A stretch of DNA of 56,434 bases from a virus. The notes beneath the pieces are model-generated. The model searched no databases. It was not told where the DNA came from and saw only the letters and a program-made list of their open reading frames with translations. A program made the position numbers and the translations under genes. Where the stretch lies: positions 1 to 56,434 of the IMG/VR virus record IMGVR_UViG_3300044638_006829, one strand, 5' to 3'. Shown here piece by piece: positions 15,622 to 56,434 of the stretch (positions within the stretch are counted from its first letter, which is position 1; each line of letters opens with the position of its first letter).

Positions 15622-16178
15622 TGACCTCAACTCCTGTTGTTCTTCTTCTAAAGCGATCCGGACAATCGTCGGATAGGCCGAACACTTCAGTTGTTCAGAA
15701 CGGCGAACTAGCGATCTCCGTGGGCGCGGCTGATCCGGGCTTGTATTTTGAAGATTCTGCTGGAGCTATTCGTAAAATAGGACCGTCGAGTTATGGGATT
15801 ACTGCACCAAACTCCAGCCCTGTCGGATCGGTCGGAAATTCCGTAGGAGAACTTTGGACTGATAGTTCTAGCGCATCGTATTACTTAAAAGTTTGGAACG
15901 GAGCCGCTTGGCAGAAGATTGGTGCAGGGTTTGCTGATACCTCTACAACTTCTACAACAGCCACAACAGCTTTATTTGCAACTCAAGCTAATACAGCAAC
16001 TTTAGCGTCTGGTGCAATCCTGGCATCTGGAGCTGTACGCGGATCTACAGTTTACTCTGTAGGTCTTCCTGGACCTTCTACTCAACCCTCAGGTTCGTTG
16101 GTTTACTTAACCGAGACATCGGGGACGTATCCGAGCGGTTTATACGTCCGAGCTGCCGATGCGTGGGCATTTATTTAA
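15621..16178 (+). CDS. Fibre-like virion protein
   Basis: A 185-residue protein with the pattern NGELAISVGAADPGLYFED near residues 27-45, which I recall from N-terminal parts of cyanophage and other phage tail fibres, followed by ELWTDSSSASYYLKVWNGAAWQKIG, a fibre-type module also seen in the 24010-24876 gene. The second half is Thr/Ala-rich and shaft-like (TSTTATTALFATQANTATLA). It is short for a complete fibre and may be a fibre adaptor or stub. TAATG-coupled to the split-SWIM gene and convergent, with 4 nt overlap, with the Dps-like gene. Confidence 0.65.
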   Translation: MTSTPVVLLLKRSGQSSDRPNTSVVQNGELAISVGAADPGLYFEDSAGAIRKIGPSSYGITAPNSSPVGSVGNSVGELWTDSSSASYYLKVWNGAAWQKIGAGFADTSTTSTTATTALFATQANTATLASGAILASGAVRGSTVYSVGLPGPSTQPSGSLVYLTETSGTYPSGLYVRAADAWAFI

Positions 16179-16708
16179 GGACGCAGTGTGCTTTTGAGGA
16201 ACCACGAGGCTTTGAACATATCACCGACTAGCTCGGCTAAATAGTTTTCTACGTCGGGCGCATCTACTTCTTTAGCAATTTTTTGCAGATCTTTAGATGC
16301 AAACCCGCAAGTTTCTAAATTACGCAGATAGACAGTCAGACCGTCGCGTGTTTCGTAGGATTTCACATGTTTAAAATTTTTATAACTTGTTAGTAAACCT
16401 TTTTCGCACATAGGCATCAGAAAATCCATCGACCTGACAAATTCTCCGAGCTTGTCAAATTGTGTGATGTGTGCGTCGTATTGATCTTTAAGAAATTCGT
16501 GAATCGGTAAAAACAGAGGACCTTCGACGTTTAGGTGAAGTAAGTGACTTTGTACGTACAGTTGATGTACAAGCGAAGACAAAGACACCAGTCCGGAGAT
16601 AAGCTCTTCGACTGATGCCTTTGTTTCTGGCTGCTCCGGTGCTTCGGACATATCAGCTTGTTCCGTCGAGGAAACAGGGGCAGAACTGAAAGAACCGGAG
16701 AGCGTCAT
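16175..16708 (-). CDS. Dps-like ferritin
   Basis: A 177-residue protein whose residues 30-177 resemble the Dps/miniferritin four-helix bundle. Key segment: HLLHLNVEGPLFLPIHEFL then FDKLGEFVR. By comparison with Dps proteins, the ferroxidase ligands would be H58, H70, D85 and E89; the further Asp usually after the second His is shifted by one (K74-D75), and the usual HW is HL. Dps proteins oxidise and store iron and protect DNA from peroxide damage. The first 30 residues are a disordered Ser/Glu/Pro arm, as in some DNA-binding Dps tails. It is on the opposite strand, in a two-gene insert with a small HTH protein. Confidence 0.75.
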   Translation of the reverse strand: MTLSGSFSSAPVSSTEQADMSEAPEQPETKASVEELISGLVSLSSLVHQLYVQSHLLHLNVEGPLFLPIHEFLKDQYDAHITQFDKLGEFVRSMDFLMPMCEKGLLTSYKNFKHVKSYETRDGLTVYLRNLETCGFASKDLQKIAKEVDAPDVENYLAELVGDMFKASWFLKSTLRP

Positions 16709-19587: not shown

Positions 19588-19885
19588 CGGGATTAGAGAA
19601 TCTCGACACGAGCGTAAGGTTCGCTTCCACGGGGAGGCGCCTTTCGCTAAACACGACTATCGCTACCGCAGCCGAGATGTTATTCGGATGGCTGGTAAGG
19701 TTTGGGCTGAGAGTCCAGAGGAACGCACTCACCGTTTAGCTCGCGAAAGACTGTCCGGTAAATCCAAATCGACCCCCGTGGGCTTAGGTTTCGCGGATGA
19801 CGATAAATTCGGACCAGATGATTCTTTCGCTACTAGAAGTTTCCTTAGCAATATACGCGCCCCAGAGGACTATAGGATTCAATAA
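19580..19885 (+). CDS. Hypothetical basic protein
   Basis: Unrecognised 101-residue protein, rich in Arg and His in its first 60 residues (RESRHERKVRFHGE, HDYRYRSRDVIRM) and acidic later (GFADDDKFGPDDSF). It overlaps the upstream gene by 8 nt and, at its 3' end, the convergent methylase-like gene by 41 nt. No motif seen. It closes the first rightward block. Confidence 0.5.
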   Translation: MSDGIRESRHERKVRFHGEAPFAKHDYRYRSRDVIRMAGKVWAESPEERTHRLARERLSGKSKSTPVGLGFADDDKFGPDDSFATRSFLSNIRAPEDYRIQ

Positions 19886-20423
19886 ACTCCCTTATTCGGC
19901 GATTAGTATCCTCGAAATCGGGCAAGTAAAATACAAATCCGTAACATCTTGAGTTTGTAAGCTTAGGTAACTCAGGCATGTCCAAATACAGCGAGGGGTG
20001 CTCTTTCAAAATGCACATAGGCAGATCAATATTTAACTTCTGAGTTGTTATCAAAGCAACTTCAGATGACGTTAAGAAAACTATGCCTTCTCTGAACGTG
20101 TTTTTTAAATATTGACGGTAGCACTCCTCAAGCCAGACTCTTTGTGCAGATTTTTGAAACCTGCGATTACGTCTGAACAGATGGGGATCTTTAGGTTGTT
20201 CAGACGACGATAAAAGATCCCGTGGCGGATAAAGGTATATGTTTTTTGCTTTCCACGTCTGCCGCAGACCGTTGTGCTCCGGAGTGAAATACCGGTTGGC
20301 ATTAACCAACGTGTTGGCGGCTTCACTCGATGCCGGATCTAGATCAATTTCTCCTCCTAGGAACGATGTCGTTACCCCAATAAGATCCGGAGGAGAAACA
20401 AAGTCAATCGTTGTTTGCGGCAT
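19845..20423 (-). CDS. Dam-like adenine methylase relative, catalytic motif altered
   Basis: A 192-residue protein resembling the phage Dam-type N6-adenine methyltransferase family: a GGEIDLDPASSEAANTLV segment (residues 25-42, counting from the ATG at 20423), then LRQTWKAKNIYLYPP. In active members the latter ends in NPPY; here it reads YPPRDL, so the catalytic Asn and aromatic residues are replaced. Activity is therefore doubtful; it may bind DNA or SAM, or be decaying. The last gene of the leftward regulator-like operon, overlapping the upstream gene by 20 nt. Confidence 0.6.
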   Translation of the reverse strand: MPQTTIDFVSPPDLIGVTTSFLGGEIDLDPASSEAANTLVNANRYFTPEHNGLRQTWKAKNIYLYPPRDLLSSSEQPKDPHLFRRNRRFQKSAQRVWLEECYRQYLKNTFREGIVFLTSSEVALITTQKLNIDLPMCILKEHPSLYLDMPELPKLTNSRCYGFVFYLPDFEDTNRRIREFIESYSPLGRVYC

Positions 20424-20826
20424 CAACAATACTGTTTAAGCGTTCATCTGCTTCGCATAAATCTAAAACGTGTAGGCTCATCCCTTTGGTGGAGACCAAC
20501 ACGACAACTCCGGTATCCTTTTTGTCGCCGTACTTTTGCGTAATCTTGATTGCTTCTGTCAGGAAAGAAGATGTGCCGTTGTCGCACATTTCCTCAGCAA
20601 GCGCCAAGTCGACTTTGAGATCATCTAAAGTCATGTAGACACTCTTATCCGGTTTAGACGGATTGAAACAAAGAACGCCAACACCTTTAGCTTGTTTAAA
20701 CTCCCCGTAAAGAGTCACCATGTCCCCGGTGATCATCTTCGCAGCATTCAGGCCAATCCGATTTTTTACTTCGGATTTACCAAAAAGATTCTTAGCTAAT
20801 TTGTCTACGTTGCTTAAATCAAACAT
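20404..20826 (-). CDS. Hypothetical protein in regulator-like operon
   Basis: A 140-residue protein of unknown function, starting at the ATG 20826 (MFDLSNVDKLAKNLFG). The frame stays open to 21072, but that extension lies inside the upstream gene and has shadow-like composition. The product has an ITGDMVTLYGEF segment and a central GVGVLCFNPSKPDKSVYM, and ends with a possible helix (LDLCEADERLNSIVD). The start overlaps the upstream stop by 8 nt (ATGTTTGA), and its stop overlaps the methylase-like start. Confidence 0.55.
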   Translation of the reverse strand: MFDLSNVDKLAKNLFGKSEVKNRIGLNAAKMITGDMVTLYGEFKQAKGVGVLCFNPSKPDKSVYMTLDDLKVDLALAEEMCDNGTSSFLTEAIKITQKYGDKKDTGVVVLVSTKGMSLHVLDLCEADERLNSIVDAANND

Positions 20827-21154
20827 TTTTGTAGTTGGCGAAATTCTGCCATGCGGCTTCAAGGACTTTAGCCGCATCAAAGAGAAATGCGGAGGTATTG
20901 GTTTCCGTCGGGTCAAGTTTGCAGTAATGAACGCCTTCAACCAACCCAGCCGTGCCGCCGCTTGCAATACCAGTATGAACAAGTTTATCCACGACAACAG
21001 GAGCCACATTGAGGCGCGAGGCAATAGCCCTCTTGTTAACAAACGCTGTGGTGATGCCGCCCGCTTTCGCATTGGATAAAATCTGCAAACTGGTGTCGAT
21101 GTTGGTGAGAACTTCAGTCAACTTTTTAAGTTCTCTGGAGTAATCTGCTGTCAT
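20819..21154 (-). CDS. HTH-type DNA-binding protein (putative)
   Basis: A 111-residue protein with a heptad-like N-terminal helix (YSRELKKLTEVLTNIDTSLQI) then a helix-turn-helix region: NKRAIASRLNVAPVVVDKLV, followed by GLVEGVHYCKLDP, a wing phrase typical of phage excisionase/MerR-like domains (EGVHY). Likely a dimeric DNA-binding regulator. It is the first gene after a 140-nt leader containing several strong hairpins (21168-21282), so its expression may be controlled at the RNA level. Confidence 0.6.
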   Translation of the reverse strand: MTADYSRELKKLTEVLTNIDTSLQILSNAKAGGITTAFVNKRAIASRLNVAPVVVDKLVHTGIASGGTAGLVEGVHYCKLDPTETNTSAFLFDAAKVLEAAWQNFANYKNV

Positions 21155-21296: not shown

Positions 21297-21722
21297 TTAG
21301 GGAAGTCGTAGCCATTCGGCGTCAGATACGTCTTTTACATCTTTGAATTGTCTGTTGAATCCCGCACGAATTTTTTTGGTTATGTGCGAAGTCTCGAAGC
21401 GAGACACGTGGTGATACGGATTGACGCAGCCAATTGTCCCGCAAGTTCTTTTTAGAACGCTATTTCCTATATCTCCTCGGAAAAATGCGTAATAAACGTT
21501 CTCTATGCGCAATTTTTTACCTAAAACAGTCAGATTGCCGAAATTTGATTTCCAGCACGTAAAAAGATCTTGATTTTGGAGTGTGAGTTGCGTTAGTAAA
21601 GCTCTTAATTCGGGTTCAACTTTATTCAAATCTGGGAAAACCGGAGGATCGTCCAGTTCTTTTAGGCAATCCGGGCACATGGTGTCTTTTTTGCTGTGTT
21701 CCCGGTTTTTTATGCAAATCAC
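21297..21722 (-). CDS. Zinc-loop protein 1 (C-x4-C-V-N-P-x-H), degenerate HNH type
   Basis: A 141-residue protein. It has an N-terminal CPDCLKEL pair and, near residue 105, RTCGTIGCVNPYHH, which is the zinc-binding loop of His-Me/HNH homing-type endonucleases (C-x4-C-x-N-P-x-H). The His that precedes the first Cys in active phage HNH enzymes (H-x-C) is Arg here, and the later Asn position is His, so nuclease activity is unlikely. The C-terminal part is basic (KKIRAGFNRQFKD). Related proteins lie at 22368-23033 and 45660-46271. Starts GTG in a GTGA overlap with the upstream stop. Confidence 0.65.
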   Translation of the reverse strand: MICIKNREHSKKDTMCPDCLKELDDPPVFPDLNKVEPELRALLTQLTLQNQDLFTCWKSNFGNLTVLGKKLRIENVYYAFFRGDIGNSVLKRTCGTIGCVNPYHHVSRFETSHITKKIRAGFNRQFKDVKDVSDAEWLRLP

Positions 21723-22153
21723 ATCAATTTCTCCAGTTGTTGTACAAAATCATCGGGCTCCTCGATTAGAAGATCAATCAGGGTCTTGAGTGTTTTAGAG
21801 ACTTCACACGATTTTGGATCGTTTCCTACGCTTTCTTTTTCGGTCAGTGTCAACCAATACGTATAAGCGTTTAAAAGATACAAATGGGTCTGTTTTGCCC
21901 GCAAAGCTTGGGCTTTCCACTTTTCATATTCAAAGCTGCTGTTGTGACGGCTGCTGCCAGTTTTAAGTTCTAGTTCTCGAATTTCAATCTGCAGCTCAAT
22001 ATCGCGGATTGTGTACTGCGTGGCCGAGATCTTAGCTTTGCACTCCTGTACAGACTCCGGCTGTTTGTTATCGGAATAAATCCAAACCGGTAAATTCTCA
22101 ATGATGTACTCTTTATCCCAGAGTGAAGGCTTGAGTTCTGTTGAAATTGTCAT
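21719..22153 (-). CDS. Hypothetical coiled-coil protein
   Basis: A 144-residue protein (ATG at 22153, in an ATGA overlap with the upstream stop; the frame continues to 22171). The middle is a long charged helix (DIELQIEIRELELKTG, then KWKAQALRAKQTHLYLL) and the end is acidic (LLIEEPDDFVQQLEKLM). No motif of known function. Its place between a winged-helix gene and a zinc-loop gene in an operon joined by four-base overlaps suggests a regulatory or takeover role. Confidence 0.5.
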   Translation of the reverse strand: MTISTELKPSLWDKEYIIENLPVWIYSDNKQPESVQECKAKISATQYTIRDIELQIEIRELELKTGSSRHNSSFEYEKWKAQALRAKQTHLYLLNAYTYWLTLTEKESVGNDPKSCEVSKTLKTLIDLLIEEPDDFVQQLEKLM

Positions 22154-22371
22154 AGATCTAGAGTCTCGCAAATTAAAGTGTTGAACTCGCCGTTAATACA
22201 GTACAAAACGTGTTGTTCAAAAGATGTTCGACAAACAATTTCGTACTTAATCAGCCTGTTTAAATCTCGTAAGATTTTCAATTTGGATGTTCCGAGATTT
22301 GCTACTAGGTCTGCTGTAGATAACGGCTGCTCGGATGTTAGCAGATAAAGCAAATCTGCGTAATGCTTCAC
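22150..22371 (-). CDS. Winged-helix DNA-binding protein
   Basis: A small protein with a winged-helix pattern: YADLLYLLTSEQPLSTADLVANLGTSK (helices 1-2), KLKILRDLNRLIKYEIV (recognition helix), then a hairpin wing (HVLYCINGEFN). It closely follows ArsR/MarR-like spacing, so it is probably a DNA-binding regulator. The start used is GTG at 22371, overlapping the upstream stop as GTGA, which matches the other junctions in this operon and gives 73 residues. An ATG at 22482 is possible and would add 37 residues inside the upstream gene. Confidence 0.6.
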   Translation of the reverse strand: MKHYADLLYLLTSEQPLSTADLVANLGTSKLKILRDLNRLIKYEIVCRTSFEQHVLYCINGEFNTLICETLDL

Positions 22372-23033
22372 GCAAGCACGGATTTTTTTATATTCGTGAT
22401 CGTTCGTATGGAAAGATCTTTGTTGTACTTGGCGTGTAGCAGCTGTTTGATCACTCGGGTTTTTAGATTCTTCGAAATCCATGTTTTCACGTCTTCCCGC
22501 ATTTCAGGAGTGACTTTAGTTGCGGGGCTGGCGGCGACCATCATGTGATGCGGATTGACGCATTCAGCGTCGCCGCAAGTCGTCATGATCTTATCTTTTT
22601 CGGAAAGGACGACGTTGTGGAACTTCGTGTACACAAATCTTCTTGGTCTCATAATTGTCTTATCTGTCGCATCGACGAGACGCGCAAAACTGCAGGGCAG
22701 ATAGACGTGCTGATCTGGAGTAAGGGCTAAGCGGTTCTGCTTGAACCAGACTGCGACCTTATCGGAAGCGCTCCTGGCAGCTCGCAGCTCCTCTAGGCAG
22801 ATGGGGCAGGCGTAAAGACCTGCGACTGGGTGCGACCGCTCTAGATCCTGCGTGGCGACGAGGATTGCCTCATGACGACCGCACTTACAGGTCAGGGTCG
22901 AGGTATTGCCACGCTCTTCGACTCGGAATGAGTCCAAGGTATAGACCCGTGAGACTAGGCCTGTTGCAGGCTCGACAGCGGTTTGGACTAGCAAGCCCAG
23001 GACTGAGACCAGGACAGGGTTGAACATAGGCAT
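22368..23033 (-). CDS. Zinc-loop protein 2 with C-terminal HTH
   Basis: First gene of the leftward regulator-like operon, 221 residues from the ATG at 23033 (the frame is open to a GTG at 23069). It contains TCKCGRHE and ACPICLEE (a probable zinc ribbon), then TTCGDAECVNPHHM, the same C-x4-C-V-N-P-x-H loop as the protein at 21297-21722, again without the catalytic His and Asn of HNH enzymes. The C-terminus (WISKNLKTRVIKQLLHAKY, then LSIRTITNIKK) reads as a helix-turn-helix. A metal-stabilised DNA-binding regulator is the best guess. Confidence 0.65.
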   Translation of the reverse strand: MPMFNPVLVSVLGLLVQTAVEPATGLVSRVYTLDSFRVEERGNTSTLTCKCGRHEAILVATQDLERSHPVAGLYACPICLEELRAARSASDKVAVWFKQNRLALTPDQHVYLPCSFARLVDATDKTIMRPRRFVYTKFHNVVLSEKDKIMTTCGDAECVNPHHMMVAASPATKVTPEMREDVKTWISKNLKTRVIKQLLHAKYNKDLSIRTITNIKKSVLA

Positions 23034-23388
23034 ACACCTAGTTGCATGGTGCTCACACAAGGATAGCACGGCGAACCTTGCCTTTGAATATTAATTTTGT
23101 TTCTAGAGGGTTACTTAACGTAAATTACCCGTCTCACTTGAGTCTCATGTTGATTCGAGTTTTTATCTTGCCTAATCGCAGCGCAATTCGAGTGTTAACT
23201 GTATTACTACATTAATTTTTATATTATTTACAGTTCGCGATTTACACGCAATTAACGTTAAGTCGAGCCGATTGGAAACTTTTTTTGCCGCGAGAGTCTG
23301 ACAGGCAACGGCGTGGCATTAGGCACCCTTTGGTAAGTTTTAACAATTACTGGTAGTATTGGTTCATAAAACACCGTAGGTGTTCCAA
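23034..23388 (+). promoter_or_regulatory. AT-rich divergent control region
   Basis: A 355-nt gap between the leftward regulator-like operon and the rightward block, the longest non-coding stretch in the window. It is AT-rich at 23080-23265 and holds a TTAACGTTAA palindrome (23252-23261), a related CTTAACGTAA (23114-23123), and a dyad AACACC-GTA-GGTGTT (23370-23384) just before the ATG at 23389. Promoters for both directions are expected; replication origin function is possible but unsupported beyond AT content and repeats. Confidence 0.55.
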
Positions 23389-23553
23389 ATGGCCGCTGTA
23401 CCCGCTGTACCTGTTAGCATCGACGAGAGCCCTGACGCCAAGTTCTGGGCAGAGTGCCGTAAACGCGCTCTAGAGCTGAACATTCCTGCCTGGCAACTTG
23501 CTGAGGAGGGGTTCCGGCATCCAGCTATTGACAAGCACACCCGCAGAGGGTAG
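23389..23553 (+). CDS. Short hypothetical protein
   Basis: A 54-residue ORF from ATG 23389 to TAG 23551-23553. The product begins with a repeated VPAVPV stretch, then a helical segment (AKFWAECRKRALELNIPAW) that looks like a small helical domain. A dyad ends 5 nt before the start, so translation or transcription may be controlled there. No family recognised. It is the first rightward gene after the control region. Confidence 0.5.
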   Translation: MAAVPAVPVSIDESPDAKFWAECRKRALELNIPAWQLAEEGFRHPAIDKHTRRG

Positions 23554-23582: not shown

Positions 23583-23957
23583 ATGTCTGAACCCAGGACT
23601 GAGGCGGAACGTCGCGAGCGTTTTCAGCGATTGTATGAAGGGTATATGGAGGGAAAAAGTTATCGGGAATTGGGTTCGTTGTTTGGACTTAGCGCTGAAC
23701 GGGTGCGTCAAGTTTTAAAAGCCTGTGCCAATGAGACTGAAATGCGTAATTTGCGCGAACGCATCGATAACCGGTGTATGAACACTTGGCGAGCTAAAGA
23801 AGTCTGCCATTTGCTAGATGCCGGCAACAGCTGCAGCGCAGTAGCCAAACTTTTAAATATTTCGGTTGACGCTGTTAAACGCGTATCTTCGAAACGTCGT
23901 AAGCGTTCCGTTGTTACGTTGTTACCTGGCGCAAAATCTACCGAGTGCCCCGTCTAA
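23583..23957 (+). CDS. Sigma region 4-like HTH protein
   Basis: A 124-residue basic protein with two HTH-like units. The first, YMEGKSYRELGSLFGLSAERVRQVLK (residues near 21-46), is very close to the sigma-70 region 4.2 pattern, where the SAERVRQV phrase contacts the -35 element. The second, LLDAGNSCSAVAKLLNISVDAVKRV (near 79-103), is a LuxR/Hin-like HTH. It lacks sigma region 2, so it is not a full sigma factor; it could be a promoter-specificity or transcription-modifying factor for the rightward genes that follow. ATG start, 29 nt after the 54-residue ORF. Confidence 0.65.
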   Translation: MSEPRTEAERRERFQRLYEGYMEGKSYRELGSLFGLSAERVRQVLKACANETEMRNLRERIDNRCMNTWRAKEVCHLLDAGNSCSAVAKLLNISVDAVKRVSSKRRKRSVVTLLPGAKSTECPV

Positions 23958-45067: not shown

Positions 45068-45712
45068 TCAGAGGGAGAAATCAATCGAACCGATAGCGGC
45101 AGCGGCTACCTTTCCTTTTTCAGGATCGACAGCCTTCTTAGGAGTTGTTTTGGTGGACTTAGGAAGATAGAGAATTTTGTCGACTGTGTAGTTGAGATAG
45201 TTCTTTTCGTCTTTCTCGCTAGTGGAAACTTTGCCTACTGCGATAGTCGGAGTTCCTGGTGCGAGTTCCGAAAGCTGTTTAGACAGCTCGCCCCAGGCAG
45301 TGAGTTTGAACCACGCGGTTTCGCTATCTTCCGCCTGCCAAGCAAGTGAACGATTTGTAACCGTAGTGTCGCTTAGCTCAACTTCATCTGCCTTCGGACC
45401 CAGGCCCCCCGTGGCCATAAAGACGTTGATGGCCAACAGATCGCTGAAGTTGTCTTCAGTGACAACCAACATGGGTTGCATTTTCAGCACTCCGTCGATT
45501 GTCGGTTTTGTGGGCCCGATAGCAAGAATGGTTTGTCCTTCCTTCAGTTCCTTAAGCAGCTTGCCTACGTAGTGTGAAGCTTGCTGAAGCAACTGAAATT
45601 TAGTTTCAACTCGTTTGTCGTTAGAAGGCAAGCTTTCCGCCAGCACATTCACAAGTCCTTCATCTTCCTGCGCGGTTGCAGTTACTCGCAGACCCATCAG
45701 AAATAGATTCAT
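45068..45712 (-). CDS. SSB-like protein with tandem OB folds
   Basis: A 214-residue single-stranded-DNA-binding protein. Residues 105-185 match the SSB OB fold: NVFMATGGLGPKADEVEL, TVTNRSLAWQA, then TAWFKLTAWGELSKQL and GTPTIAVGKVSTSEK. The first 95 residues look like a second, more diverged OB fold (QASHYVGKLLKELKEGQTI). The tail is Lys/Pro then AAIGSIDFSL, a variant of the acidic-hydrophobic SSB tip without the acidic run. It protects ssDNA during replication. Start at ATG 45712 (an ATG at 45697 is possible), overlapping the upstream gene. Confidence 0.72.
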   Translation of the reverse strand: MNLFLMGLRVTATAQEDEGLVNVLAESLPSNDKRVETKFQLLQQASHYVGKLLKELKEGQTILAIGPTKPTIDGVLKMQPMLVVTEDNFSDLLAINVFMATGGLGPKADEVELSDTTVTNRSLAWQAEDSETAWFKLTAWGELSKQLSELAPGTPTIAVGKVSTSEKDEKNYLNYTVDKILYLPKSTKTTPKKAVDPEKGKVAAAAIGSIDFSL

Positions 45713-46271
45713 TGCTCAGTTTTCGGTAAATGGTTGAACGGTGAACGTTAAGTGCTTTGGCAATCTGAGTGACCTCGACGCCTTGGCGTCGGTAGGCTAG
45801 CAGGAGTTTCAGGTCGCCGCCAGAGATTTTTTCTCTTTTTTCTTTAGCGTACGCAAAATGATACGGATTTATACAGCTCTTACAATTACAGCTGGGCTTG
45901 GCGATCTGGCCGTCTTTCGGGATGTCTAGATATTTAAGTATTAGATTTCGAATGTAGTGCCGAGAACCGAGGGCGTAACTACACGGAACCCCATTTGTAA
46001 ACTGTGCAGACCAGGGAGCACAGATAGCATGTGTGTAGTTATTCGTAGCTAAGTTTTCGAACAGCTCAGATAATGCAGTTATCTTACATGCGCCATAACC
46101 TAAATTATATGACTCTGCGTTCAAGGCCCTGGCGATATCCGTAGCCTGAGCCTGAGCGTGGCCGCTGTCGTTTGCTCTTAATGCTATCTTTAGTCGTTTT
46201 TTATCTTTATGTAATTCGAGTATGTACTGATCAATAGATGTCGTTTGGTCGGAATTTGAAATCATCTTCAA
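45660..46271 (-). CDS. Zinc-loop protein 3 with C-terminal HTH
   Basis: A 203-residue protein in the replication region with the same zinc loop as the two early-operon proteins: SCNCKSCINPYHF (C-x4-C-I-N-P-x-H, near residues 129-141). After the loop comes EKISGGDLKLLLAYRRQGVE, then VTQIAKALNVHRSTIYRKL, a canonical Hin/resolvase-type helix-turn-helix. As in the others, the HNH catalytic His before the loop (here Pro) and later Asn (Glu) are missing. The first 110 residues are of mixed type. A DNA-binding regulator is likely. It overlaps both neighbours. Confidence 0.65.
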   Translation of the reverse strand: MKMISNSDQTTSIDQYILELHKDKKRLKIALRANDSGHAQAQATDIARALNAESYNLGYGACKITALSELFENLATNNYTHAICAPWSAQFTNGVPCSYALGSRHYIRNLILKYLDIPKDGQIAKPSCNCKSCINPYHFAYAKEKREKISGGDLKLLLAYRRQGVEVTQIAKALNVHRSTIYRKLSNESISDGSASNCNRAGR

Positions 46272-51460: not shown

Positions 51461-53011
51461 TTAACGCAAACATTTCTGAATGGCATCTATAGTGCTCTCC
51501 GTGTTGTAAACGTTTACCGAGTACATCTCATCGCTAAACGTTTTACAGACATCTGGTACGTCGCTATTGATGCACACGGTAGACCACTGCATACCTGTTT
51601 GTTTCTTGAACACATCGAGTCTGCGCTTAAGGATTTCCGTAACGTCTGAGTGACCGTCAGTAATCATCAGGACATCAGCTCGCGGATCTTTGCACCCGTG
51701 ATCCAGAGCGTGGGCAATAACGGCGTTGAAGCTAGTGCCTCCGCCAAGAGTCCACGTCCCTACGAAATCCAGCAGAGTTTTGGTGTTAGGTGTTTTGGGT
51801 TTCAGCTCTACTGTTTGATCGATTCGGGTGTCGAAAAGGTTGATGTAAACCTTGCGGTTTTCTTTCAAAGCTTCTTCCGCAATCACAAAAGCAATAGCCT
51901 TGCTCCACAGTTCAGGTTCTCCACCCATAGAGCCTGATACGTCGATGTACATAACAACTGGCCCTTTGCCTAGTTGTTTTGTGTTTGCTGTGTAGTCTTT
52001 AGTTAAGATAGTTTTTTGTGCAAACTTCATAGCAAATAATGCTCGGCCCTGCGGCGAAGCCGCTAAAGCAATCTCAACCGGAAAAGCTTTAGTTACATCG
52101 TTGCTGAAGGTTGCGCCGGTAACAGCTTCGTAGGTCGCTGCTGTTTTCTTCTCCCGTTTGCGCTGAGCCCATACCCTGCGCAATGCCCCCAACTTAGTTG
52201 TAAGCTCCCGGAGCTTCTTATTGCCCTTCAGACGCTGCGCCAGGTCCCGCTTAGCCTGTAGGTCTGTGCCGTGCCTCCCCTCGCCTGGCTCAACCCCGTG
52301 GAGGTTAGACATAGCTTCATTGAGGCTGTCGCTATCCTTCAGGACTTCATCCACAATCTGGTTTGATTGCGATTGAATTTTCTCAGCAGCTTGCTGGACT
52401 GCATCGCTGAGCGCTTGATTAAGAGCCTTACCTTCCTTTCGCGCCATGTCTGCTGCAGCTTTATCGCCTTTGGCCACAGCATCTTTGTACTGTTGCCGCA
52501 GCTCCTCAAGCTTCTCTCCAGCTCCTGTCAGCAGCTGTACGTCGAACGAGTTTTGTTCGATGGCCTCTTGGATAACGTCTGCCAGGCGATTCAGTATGTT
52601 GATCGCGTTGTTACCAGCGTTGAATTGATCTCCCACGCAACGTTGCAGGAGATCAGACCATCCGGCAGCTTGGCCAAGATCAGCCATGATCGCGTACCAG
52701 ACTCCGTTCTCTGGCTTGTATCCTTCCGGTAGAGCAGCTTTGTCGCCATCGCACATCTTACGGAAGTAAGTTTCGTAAGCATCTTCGCTCACCAGCCACT
52801 TAACGTTATCAGCGTTGTACAAGCGGTCATACAGTTCCTTACCAAACCTAGACAGTTGTTTGATGTTGTAGTGATCAATCAGATACTTGACGATCGGCCT
52901 AGTCTCGCGGATGAAGTCATCCCAGAGAAAGTCGGCCAGAGGTGAGCAAGCAAGTGTCAAAGGCTCGTTGTTTACGAGCCGAACAAATTCAGACTGGGTT
53001 TCGAAGTTCAT
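51461..53011 (-). CDS. VWA-domain protein (CobT/ViaA/CoxE-like)
   Basis: A 516-residue protein. The C-terminal 200 residues are a von Willebrand factor A domain with an intact MIDAS: VMYIDVSGSMGG (D-x-S-x-S near residue 355), GGGTSFNAVI (Thr) and VLMITDGHSD (Asp). The N-terminal part is helical, with a very charged stretch (KLEELRQQYKDAVAKGDKAA) as in CobT-, ViaA- or CbbO-type partners of MoxR ATPases. Such proteins act with the ATPase to remodel or insert metal in target proteins. It is 13 nt downstream of the AAA+ gene. The target in infection is not known. Confidence 0.82.
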   Translation of the reverse strand: MNFETQSEFVRLVNNEPLTLACSPLADFLWDDFIRETRPIVKYLIDHYNIKQLSRFGKELYDRLYNADNVKWLVSEDAYETYFRKMCDGDKAALPEGYKPENGVWYAIMADLGQAAGWSDLLQRCVGDQFNAGNNAINILNRLADVIQEAIEQNSFDVQLLTGAGEKLEELRQQYKDAVAKGDKAAADMARKEGKALNQALSDAVQQAAEKIQSQSNQIVDEVLKDSDSLNEAMSNLHGVEPGEGRHGTDLQAKRDLAQRLKGNKKLRELTTKLGALRRVWAQRKREKKTAATYEAVTGATFSNDVTKAFPVEIALAASPQGRALFAMKFAQKTILTKDYTANTKQLGKGPVVMYIDVSGSMGGEPELWSKAIAFVIAEEALKENRKVYINLFDTRIDQTVELKPKTPNTKTLLDFVGTWTLGGGTSFNAVIAHALDHGCKDPRADVLMITDGHSDVTEILKRRLDVFKKQTGMQWSTVCINSDVPDVCKTFSDEMYSVNVYNTESTIDAIQKCLR

Positions 53012-54241: not shown

Positions 54242-54448
54242 TCAGGAGATCCCTGTAGGGTGCGGAAACTTTAAGTAAGTAGCCTTTACCCAACAGGCTC
54301 GGGAGAGTTTGTCGCGAATCATCTTCAGCTTTTTAGTAGCGCTATCGTGATTTTCGAAAAGTACTGCAGCGCATATGTCTGAAGTGTATTTTTCGATGTC
54401 ACATAGATAGCCCTCTTTAGATTCGATGACGTGAACTACGCGGTGCAT
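54242..54448 (-). CDS. Small protein between coiled-coil and AAA+ genes
   Basis: A 68-residue protein, TAATG-coupled to the 408-residue gene before it. Sequence is mixed, with VHVIESKEGYLCDIEKYTSD and a basic later half (SATKKLKMIRDKLSRACW). No motif. Its position, between two parts of the AAA+ module, suggests it belongs to the module. Confidence 0.55.
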   Translation of the reverse strand: MHRVVHVIESKEGYLCDIEKYTSDICAAVLFENHDSATKKLKMIRDKLSRACWVKATYLKFPHPTGIS

Positions 54449-55674
54449 TAGAAATCAACCTCCGTATCGTTATCCGAATCCTCAAACTCTTCAGCCGAAG
54501 GTTCCACAGCTACAAACTCTGACAAGAGTTCGTCTAAGTTTTCACCGGCAGCTCCGATAAGTTCCTTGCGCTGGTTGATAAGTTTTTTGAGTTGCTTGGA
54601 TCGCTGTACATATACGTCAAGTTCAAGGTTTGCATCCTTAACGAGAAGGTTTAGCGCTGACGGGTTCTCAGCAGACTTAATGCGGTCACACAGAGATTTG
54701 TATTGGGAAGAGAGAGCCAAAGATTGCTTGAGTTTTTCGAGACCTTTAGATTCATCTCGCTTGTTGCAGATCGCTTCAAGTTCTGTGCGAATCTCTTCTT
54801 GAACTGCTACGAACTCATCTGTACCTTTCTGACGGACACTCCGATCATTTGCTTGGATGTCATTACCCGCGTCAAGCAGCCGCGCGGCAAGAGCGGAAAG
54901 ATGGTCGAAGCCGGGAACAGAATCACTGATGAGTTTCAGTTTCTCTGCAGTTAGCTGCCACGATCCGCGTTTCTTGTTGCCGCCAGTTTGCTGCCGTCCG
55001 ACTTTGCTAGCGATGCGTACATCCAGATCATCTAGCAGCTCAGCGCTAATAGTTAGTGCTTTATCTGCAGCATTGTTTCTTGCTGCTTCTAAAACCTGTT
55101 GTGTGTTGATTTGATTCTCGTAAGCCATCAACGCCGCCAGGTCGCCATCAATCGGCTTCTCCACACGCTCCATTGAGACAGGGAGAGGGCCCAACACCGA
55201 CACTCGAATTGGAGCACGGTATTCCTGCCGCGTGGGGAAGATTCTCAGATACGCTTCATGCGCGAGCTTGAATTCGTCGCTGTCTTCGAAAAGTGGGCGA
55301 AGGATGGCGTCTGCTGTTTGAGCCCATGCATCGTATTCACCTTTCCAAAGATCTTTCAGGCGCTCGTTAGCTTGTTCAGCCGCAGTGCGAATGGTTTTGA
55401 TCAGATCGTTAGCGCACTCAAAATAGTTAGAAGTGACAAAATGAGAATCGCCGTAGTGAATGCAATAGCTGTCATACAGTTCACGCTGCATGACACGAAG
55501 TGCATCAAGCTCTGCTTTGAGAGAGTTTGAAAGATTCGGTCGAAGGCTGACTGTGTTGTTCTCTTCAAGAGTTTCGATAACAGACTTAGGTAGTTTGAGA
55601 TCGTCGAACTTGATCTGAACTGACTGTCGGACATCTGCAGAGATTGAACAAGCAAGCAGATAGTGAGTGGTCAT
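54448..55674 (-). CDS. Coiled-coil third component of the MoxR/VWA module
   Basis: A 408-residue, mostly helical, charged protein. Segments include LKAELDALRVMQRELYDSY, ERLKDLWKGEYDAWAQTAD and a late ELDVYVQRSKQLKKLINQRK; the end is acidic with a hydrophobic tip (SDNDTEVDF). The order (helical protein, AAA+, VWA) is like CobS/CobT-type sets in mobile elements that include a DUF3150 protein, and this could be a remote relative, but I cannot confirm the family. Likely an adaptor or substrate-recognition subunit. First gene of the operon; a terminator lies 37 nt upstream. Confidence 0.6.
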   Translation of the reverse strand: MTTHYLLACSISADVRQSVQIKFDDLKLPKSVIETLEENNTVSLRPNLSNSLKAELDALRVMQRELYDSYCIHYGDSHFVTSNYFECANDLIKTIRTAAEQANERLKDLWKGEYDAWAQTADAILRPLFEDSDEFKLAHEAYLRIFPTRQEYRAPIRVSVLGPLPVSMERVEKPIDGDLAALMAYENQINTQQVLEAARNNAADKALTISAELLDDLDVRIASKVGRQQTGGNKKRGSWQLTAEKLKLISDSVPGFDHLSALAARLLDAGNDIQANDRSVRQKGTDEFVAVQEEIRTELEAICNKRDESKGLEKLKQSLALSSQYKSLCDRIKSAENPSALNLLVKDANLELDVYVQRSKQLKKLINQRKELIGAAGENLDELLSEFVAVEPSAEEFEDSDNDTEVDF

Positions 55675-55710
55675 TTGGGTTAGTTACAAACAGAGTGGAT
55701 GTGAGTGAAG

Positions 55711-55735
55711 AAAAATACCCCTCTGAGCAGAGGGG
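55711..55735 (-). terminator. Rho-independent terminator for right-end gene cluster
   Basis: Stem CCCCTCT (55718-55724) / AGAGGGG (55729-55735), four-base loop; on the minus strand followed by TATTTTT. It separates the small right-end genes from the MoxR/VWA operon, whose promoter should then lie in the 36 nt between this stem and the ATG at 55674, unless read-through occurs. The rest of the gap 55736-55843 has no clear gene. Confidence 0.85.
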
Positions 55736-55843
55736 CATCTTTGCTAGGAGTCACCCGCAGACAGGGTAGCGTGTCGCGCACATATGCGCAAGGTTTTCAC
55801 AGAATTTACAGGTTCAACTCGCAACCTTCTCGCTGACAGGTGC

Positions 55844-56017
55844 TCAGCCCTCCAGCTCGTCGGCGATGGCGAGGAGCTTATGGGCGAAAGGCACGGGTGC
55901 AGACGCGCTGGGGATGGCCGCTGCAGCGCGGAGGGCGGCGGCGAGGTTGTTGATGCTCAGGTGTGATGAGCGGTAGGCATCCAGCACGGCCTGCGCCTCT
56001 TTCGATAGCTCAGCCAT
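55844..56017 (-). CDS. Short Ala-rich hypothetical protein
   Basis: A 57-residue ORF, ATG 56017 to TGA 55844-55846. The product reads as a helical Ala-rich unit: MAELSKEAQAVLDAYRSSHL, then LAAALRAAAAIPSASAPVPF and the end LLAIADELEG. I recall this style from picocyanobacterial phage and prophage gene clusters. It starts in a TGATG overlap with the next upstream gene. GC content here is visibly higher than in the rest of the window. Confidence 0.6.
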   Translation of the reverse strand: MAELSKEAQAVLDAYRSSHLSINNLAAALRAAAAIPSASAPVPFAHKLLAIADELEG

Positions 56018-56331
56018 CACTCAGCCTCCTGCTGCTGCGGCACCGGCTCGATGGCGGGGCGGCCCCATTTGGCAAGGACGGCACGCAGCCCAAATACCTG
56101 TGCGGCAGGACCCTGACGGTTTTTACAGGCGTAATACGCAACGCGATATGTCTCGCCAAGCTCCTTATCCGTCGGCCCTTGCGGCTCGGGCTGGGCCAGG
56201 GCGGCGCGGGCTTCAGACGCCAGCGCATGAGTCTCGCGGCGATCATCCATTAGGAGCTGGCGGTAATGATCCAGCTCATCAGCCATGCGGGCGCACAGCG
56301 CTCGCCAGTCGGTGGGGGTCGGGTCAGTCAT
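56017..56331 (-). CDS. Picocyanobacterial phage-type hypothetical protein
   Basis: A 104-residue protein: an N-terminal TDWRALCARMADELDHY helix, then ALASEARAALAQPEPQGPTD, a VAYYACKNRQG segment, and AVLAKWGRPAIEPVPQQQ. The phrases A-R-A-A-L-A-Q-P-E-P-Q-G-P-T-D and W-G-R-P-A-I-E-P-V-P are ones I associate with many small ORFs in Synechococcus/Cyanobium phages and prophages, where they recur in unrelated-looking genes. Function unknown. It overlaps both neighbours. Confidence 0.65.
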   Translation of the reverse strand: MTDPTPTDWRALCARMADELDHYRQLLMDDRRETHALASEARAALAQPEPQGPTDKELGETYRVAYYACKNRQGPAAQVFGLRAVLAKWGRPAIEPVPQQQEAE

Positions 56332-56434
56332 TGGGCAGGGCCTCCAGGGCGAGGCGGATGGTATCTACCTCTAATTCACTCCATAGATCTTTTGGATACT
56401 TGAGTGTCTCCAGCGCCTGCTCTTTCAAGCTCGG
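56324..56434 (-). CDS. Partial small protein, cut by window end
   Basis: The last 36 residues of a leftward gene whose start is outside the window: it reads SLKEQALETLKYPKDLWSEL and ends LALEALPND, with TGA at 56324-56326 overlapping the next start by 8 nt. It belongs to the same small-ORF style as the two genes after it (L-K-E-Q-A-L and I-x-x-A-L-E-x-L-P), seen as short units in picocyanobacterial phages. Confidence 0.55.
   Translation of the reverse strand, partial: PSLKEQALETLKYPKDLWSELEVDTIRLALEALPND

Follow-up and report, generated by a model that had tools for sequence, protein, structure and literature searches.

Three proteins encoded by a single virus genome, here named P1, P2 and P3, are on balance best read as catalytically dead descendants of phage HNH-HTH nucleases that have been kept as zinc-stabilised DNA-binding proteins. 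Taken separately, the dead-nuclease origin is very probable from the sequence comparisons given below, and a DNA-binding role is what we infer as quite likely. The window analysed throughout is the virus record IMGVR_UViG_3300044638_006829 from position 1 to 56,434, that is 56,434 bases.

Genes and domain organization of P1, P2 and P3

All three genes are intact open reading frames on the minus strand. P1 (21297..21722, 141 aa) contains an N-terminal zinc knuckle (C3, H9, C16, C19), the pair C56-W57 and a zinc loop, and has no HTH. P2 (22368..23069, 233 aa) is composed of an N-terminal zinc ribbon, a degenerate His-Me (HNH) zinc-loop domain and C-terminal HTH-like helices (residues 188-228, 22386..22508, minus strand). 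P3 (45660..46271, 203 aa) lies in the replication-gene region and joins a degenerate His-Me domain to a resolvase-type HTH (45714..45815, minus strand) that matches Pfam HTH_7 with E 1e-6, above the gathering score. An earlier note on this DNA had given P2 as 22368-23033; we moved its start to the GTG at 23069, because the N-terminal 12 residues (MLSLxEH) gained in this way are conserved among close relatives. The same note had described an extra zinc ribbon and a C-terminal HTH in P2, both of which are present, but an extra zinc module is not peculiar to P2, given the N-terminal knuckle of P1.

Translation of the window in six frames gave three copies of the zinc loop C-x4-C-x-N-P-x-H, which had been noticed in P1 and P2: each of the three genes has one, compared to an expectation of 0.005 from shuffled translations. 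The loops, all on the minus strand, are C94-x4-C99-x4-H104 in P1 (21411..21443, KRTCGTIGCVNPYHH), C165-x4-C170-x4-H175 in P2 (22545..22577, MTTCGDAECVNPHHM) and C128-x4-C133-x4-H138 in P3 (45858..45890, KPSCNCKSCINPYHF). In the P1 alignment the residues C3, H9, C16, C19, C56-W57 and the loop residues C94, C99 and H104 are invariant. The ribbon cysteines C61, C63, C88 and C91 of P2 (22797..22889, minus strand) are invariant in 16 diverse relatives, among which Pfam zinc-ribbon matches were obtained, and the loop residues C165, C170 and H175 are invariant together with His121. Cys126 was considered as a fourth zinc ligand of P2 and ruled out, as it varies among relatives; since His121 does not vary, it may be the better candidate.

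Homology to phage HNH endonucleases

Profile comparisons indicate that P1, P2 and P3 share ancestry with one another and with phage HNH endonucleases. Pairwise hhalign E-values were 2.9e-8 (P2-P3), 2.3e-8 (P1-P3) and 6.8e-6 (P1-P2), and the P3 profile recovered P1 and P2 in related records with E of about 1e-3 to 1e-7. The suggestion that 45660-46271 encodes a third member of the family is supported. The PHROG endonuclease profiles, which were built independently of the three families, likewise bear out the proposed HNH/His-Me origin: phrog_1872 matched 14/14 P1, 14/16 P2 and 21/26 P3 proteins, and the best PHROG match overall was phrog_826 in P3 (E 6e-9). When P3 relatives were compared to annotated phage HNH endonucleases by tblastn, the alignment ran through the C-terminal HTH (E 6e-5 to MW202476).

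The order CxxW, hairpin, zinc loop is common to the reference enzymes and the P1, P2 and P3 families, and an HTH beginning with K[LVI][ST] is shared by the reference enzymes, P2 and P3. P2 and P3 thus have the whole order CxxW, hairpin, C-x4-C-x-N-P-x-H loop and HTH of the phage HNH endonucleases with C-terminal HTH (PHROG 1872, 826, 3593 and 6254). Unlike these enzymes, the three families are without the catalytic His, P2 and P3 are without the GTxxDN helix, and P1 and P2 carry their additional N-terminal zinc modules.

Pfam zf-His_Me_endon (PF05551) scored 14.9 bits on P2, below the curated cutoff of 27, and the only informative match in a PDB sequence search with the P1, P2 and P3 profiles was that of the P3 HTH to resolvases. 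P1 also matched a nuclear receptor (E 0.012), but this hit was attributed to Cys and basic residues and discounted. In the phylogenetic tree each family formed one clade (starred), and the reference HNH proteins were separated with 92/76 support, a value that comes from few columns and with a long-branch warning. A single loss before the split of the P1, P2 and P3 families is suggested.

Loss of the catalytic residues

Nine active-type phage HNH proteins served as reference. In 9/9 of them the catalytic His occupies position -2 relative to the first zinc Cys, and in 9/9 an Asn occupies position +9 relative to the zinc His. The catalytic His was absent in 106/106 distinct homologues, comprising 24/24 P1 (Arg in 22), 29/29 P2 and 53/53 P3 sequences, and at its position the window proteins have other residues (P1 R, P2 T, P3 P). 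The AHR motif preceding the hairpin is lost as well.

Loss of the Asn took a different form in P2 and P3. The distance between the zinc His and K[LVI][ST] was 10 in 29/29 P2 and 10 or 12 in 53/53 P3 sequences, compared to 22-35 in those reference proteins where it could be measured, and we conclude that the GTxxDN-bearing helix was excised: the segment GTxxDNMxDxxxxGR is missing from both families, Asn included. The earlier note held that His and Asn were replaced in P1 and P2. This is right for the His, but in P2, as in P3, the Asn was not merely substituted, the whole segment being gone. Alignment of the homologues for catalytic residues at shifted positions revealed no His in any of the 106, while Asn was present at +8 in 44/53 P3 sequences (the P3 of the window has Arg there) and at the regular +9 in 0/29 P2 and 5/24 P1 sequences, among the latter the P1-like protein of Synechococcus phage S-EIV1.

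We find it highly improbable that P1, P2 and P3 are still nucleases, working with an unusual general base and metal site. The mutant H98A of I-PpoI retains residual activity (PMC11325842), so loss of the His alone would not prove inactivity, and P1 has a full zinc site, in some members with Asn at +9, as most P3s have Asn at +8. These observations have to be set against the uniform absence of the His, the removal of the helix with the Asn from every P2 and P3 sequence and the loss of the AHR motif. Because the metal-binding helix is gone as well as the His, P2 and P3 are very unlikely to be cutting enzymes; the inactivity of P1 is less certain.

Decay of the three genes as pseudogenes was ruled out by low dN/dS values, which were calculated only from close pairs where dS could be estimated. 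The pairwise dN and dS were 0.026 and 0.565 for P2 (L002/L008, dN/dS about 0.05), 0.044 and 0.596 for P3 (window/L025, about 0.07), and 0.026 and 0.584 for P1 (L021/L022, about 0.04). The genes are therefore under purifying selection.

Structure models

The AlphaFold2 model of P2 had a pLDDT of 85. With residues 98-182 of this model, the first matches in the PDB (Foldseek) were the SMAD MH1 and NFI DNA-binding domains, with weak scores (E about 0.2, probability up to 0.77). I-PpoI, the proposed point of comparison, was matched behind them and also weakly. VIA aligned the same residues to MH1/NFI with Z 5.0 at best (81 residues, 4.5 A), and Pfam MH1 was found in 2/16 P2s, again weakly (E 0.24). 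In BFVD the best matches of P2 were viral HNH nucleases (E 5e-5 to 1e-3). All that can be read from these weak scores is that the predicted fold would fit a DNA-binding domain of His-Me origin. The C-terminal part of P2 (residues 180-232) gave a VIA Z of 7.0 to the HTH of Tc3 transposase. For P1 the AlphaFold2 model was unreliable (pLDDT 50) and did not permit a fold comparison.

P1 has no HTH, and treble-clef zinc fingers, as classified in PMC4999995, often have partners other than DNA. The three proteins might accordingly be RNA- or protein-binding zinc modules, for instance host takeover factors acting on host RNA polymerase or nucleases. We regard this as rather unlikely, as HTHs are still fused to the domain in P2 and P3, and continue with DNA binding as the preferred reading.

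P1 and P2 occupy a conserved locus

Of the 22 records with P2, the window included, 21 also have P1 at a distance of about 1 kb, and P3 was found in the long records of this set. In the window, P2 is followed on the minus strand by a winged-HTH-like protein (22150..22482), whose DeoR-type match is below the cutoff, a conserved 150-aa protein with no assigned function (21719..22171), P1, a conserved 111-aa protein (20819..21154), a further conserved protein with no assigned function (20404..20826) and, as the last gene of the block, a DNA methyltransferase-like protein (19845..20429; phrog_111, E 1.8e-7). The start at 20826 is the likely ATG of its gene, because the longer open reading frame overlaps the preceding gene. 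This block forms a minus-strand island within plus-strand structural genes. Divergently transcribed from it is a double-HTH protein (23583..23957, plus strand), preceded by a small conserved open reading frame of 54 aa (23389..23553, plus strand, beginning MAAVPAVPVSIDESPDAKFWAECRKRAL) with homologues recognisable in most of the syntenic regions.

The order P2, winged-HTH, 150-aa protein, P1, 111-aa protein, unassigned protein, methyltransferase, with the divergent double-HTH gene, was syntenic in 13/13 records examined, except that P1 is absent in one (L155, record G021, 87 kb). Across the 13 loci examined, P1 and P2 keep to a single conserved position, which would be unusual for a mobile gene. 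In L155 the genes that flank P1 elsewhere have no P1 between them, and P2 and the sites described below are retained, a natural loss of P1.

Candidate operators upstream of P2

A conserved 16-bp site (ACTTAACGTgAATTgC) is present in two inverted copies in nearly every P2 promoter region. In the window, candidate operator A (ACTTAACGTAAATTAC, 23113..23128, plus strand) is located 43 bp upstream of the P2 start codon, and candidate operator B (ACTTAACGTTAATTGC, 23248..23263, minus strand) is inverted and 135 bp from A. Both lie in the divergent region upstream of P2, which ends at the small open reading frame starting at 23389, and the exact sequence CTTAACGTNAATT is present nowhere in the window beyond this pair. 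The A and B blocks are among the few conserved columns of 12 syntenic intergenic regions, and an AT-rich block that is also conserved lies between the inverted sites.

In 25 held-out P2 loci the mean best consensus scores were 12.3 (A) and 13.1 (B) of 16, compared to 9.7 in shuffles, with several of the A scores not significant alone. Site A was usually 42-43 bp and site B 163-188 bp from P2 in these loci. For the most divergent P2s the pair was displaced by about 120 bp; among these distant relatives, L195-L198 yielded no site B in the 330 bp taken. A search of 2.9 million viral contigs with the exact pair pattern matched 14 contigs, all of them known P2 carriers with the pair just upstream of P2. 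Allowing ≤2 mismatches, the 16-bp site occurred 40 times in 15 records, compared to 9 times for the reversed control, counts that are not independent since the records share descent. C7, T14 and C16 were invariant among distinct sites, which had been pre-selected by score. The strength of the site evidence is conservation among P2s that are only 36-77% identical.

One extra copy of the site was detected in seven records (L236-L241 and L244, in G003, G007, G016, G020, G021, G033 and G036), in front of a conserved gene of 140 aa and at a distance of about 500-565 bp from it. This gene starts the minus-strand early operon and precedes the orthologue of the window gene at 54448-55674; the window ends before the position of the extra copy. 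At 55700-56434 of the window the 140-aa gene of the relatives is absent and other short open reading frames are found instead, perhaps representing inserted or variable sequence.

The distance between A and B varied from 115 to 164 bp without a fixed helical phase. Looping by helical phasing of the pair was dropped on these grounds, as variable spacing disfavours strict looping. No conserved site was found upstream of P3, and no consensus sigma-70 promoter was found in the P2 upstream region. The one terminator-like stem-loop in the divergent region (23136-23160) is at chance level (1 found, 0.7 expected). Persistence of the sites in L155 demonstrates that P1 is not needed for it.

Proposed function of the sites

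The earlier note proposed that the nuclease fold had been reused in a family of DNA-binding regulators. The conserved inverted pair in front of P2, together with the extra copy near the early operon, lends plausibility to a regulatory function; the DNA-binding part of that proposal remains at the level of likelihood stated at the outset. We tentatively suggest P2 itself as the protein that binds the sites, to which it is tied by position only. P2 would bind A and B before its own gene by means of its HTH and its MH1-like domain, and would so autoregulate the P2-to-methyltransferase block from the divergent promoter region. The site copy near the early operon would tie the P2 block to early gene expression. 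P1, having no HTH, could be a partner or competitor, and P3 a paralogue acting in the replication region.

The sites could instead be recognised by a host factor or by one of the two neighbouring HTH proteins, the winged and the divergent one. If the pair were the target of the winged-HTH (22150-22482) or the divergent HTH protein (23583-23957), P1, P2 and P3 would still bind DNA, and P1 and P2 would act otherwise, for instance by modulating host RNA polymerase. The synteny of both HTH proteins with P2 in all loci, and the position of the sites between P2 and the divergent HTH gene, are consistent with this. P2 has an HTH of its own with good structural matches, however, and its gene directly adjoins the sites in 14/14 of the database-wide pair matches, and we consider such an arrangement unlikely, if worth keeping in mind. 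It is decidedly improbable that the pair and its AT-rich centre form a replication origin with P2 as an origin-binding or initiation protein. The inverted sites do flank a conserved AT-rich block, and some actinophages have HNH-HTH genes beside replication-initiation genes, but a single copy of the site is also located upstream of the early operon in seven genomes, and no clear turning point of GC skew is seen at 23 kb.

Comparison with known systems

The SMAD zinc loop is of the CVNPxH kind. Like P2, the eukaryotic SMAD MH1 and NFI domains have a His-Me-derived fold without the nuclease residues, and they were the top, though weakly scoring, PDB matches of the P2 model; P2 differs in having a zinc ribbon and an HTH, and a shared dead ancestor is without support. 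That MH1 is a homing endonuclease in degraded form has been described before (Grishin 2001, cited in PMC4256011). CapR of the PLE phage satellites is a repressor that goes back to the DNA-binding domain found in homing endonucleases of the T5orf172 kind (PMC10448857), and resembles the P1/P2/P3 family as a regulator of homing-endonuclease origin from the phage world. CapR corresponds to the DNA-binding part of another nuclease family, whereas P1, P2 and P3 keep the nuclease domain itself, in dead form. Plant AP2 domains are also reported to derive from homing endonucleases (Magnani 2004, cited in PMC10448857) and so exemplify a route from nuclease to transcription factor, but AP2 is an accessory DNA-binding domain and not, as in P1, P2 and P3, the His-Me domain.

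The principle of a nuclease turned regulator is therefore known from SMAD MH1, AP2 and CapR, and it is the P1/P2/P3 family with its candidate operators that appears to be new; our search of the open-licence literature found no paper on dead HNH phage regulators. More speculatively, the family might be a viral counterpart of the SMAD/NFI route, in which a nuclease domain became a phage transcription factor family with a two-site operator and a small regulon linking the regulator block to the early operon. Its origin could be independent of that of eukaryotic MH1 or even related to it. Dead forms are conserved in three paralogous families of this phage lineage, the alignment shows where the metal-binding helix was excised, and candidate operators adjoin the gene. 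A single small protein and a 16-bp site should therefore suffice for a direct test of the conversion from nuclease to regulator, which may also provide a handle on gene control in S-EIV1-like cyanophages.

Nearest phages and probable host

By the structural proteins tested, S-EIV1 (KJ410740) is the nearest named phage. The 743-aa portal-like open reading frame of the window matched S-EIV1 with 47% identity over 78% (tblastn), the sole record matched in the phage collection, and direct comparison gave 44% for the portal-like and 66% for the major-head-like open reading frame. The family A DNA polymerase is closest to those of Pseudanabaena phages (27%). On the basis of these two affinities, we infer that the host of the window virus is likely cyanobacterial.

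Tblastn with P1, P2 and P3 yielded no match among named phages, and a scan of bacterial and archaeal genomes revealed no P3 relatives. Profile searches of S-EIV1 found no P2 and no P3, and identified the P1-like protein (L234 7030-7767, minus strand, E 4.5e-9), in which homology reaches upstream of the annotated start (7467). Like the P1 of the window this protein has Arg at the catalytic His position, here in combination with Asn at +9; unlike it, the gene lies at another locus, with RTCNNPRCCNPLH.

Two further minus-strand genes of the window were noted. The gene at 16175-16708 encodes a DNA-binding protein (phrog_3636, E 1e-23) whose orthologue, with 48% identity, is the annotated ferritin-like DNA-binding protein of S-EIV1. 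The product of the gene at 51461-53011 is large, with matches to phrog_1314 (HNH endonuclease, E 6.5e-7) and phrog_24053, and might represent another, distinct nuclease-related protein of this phage.
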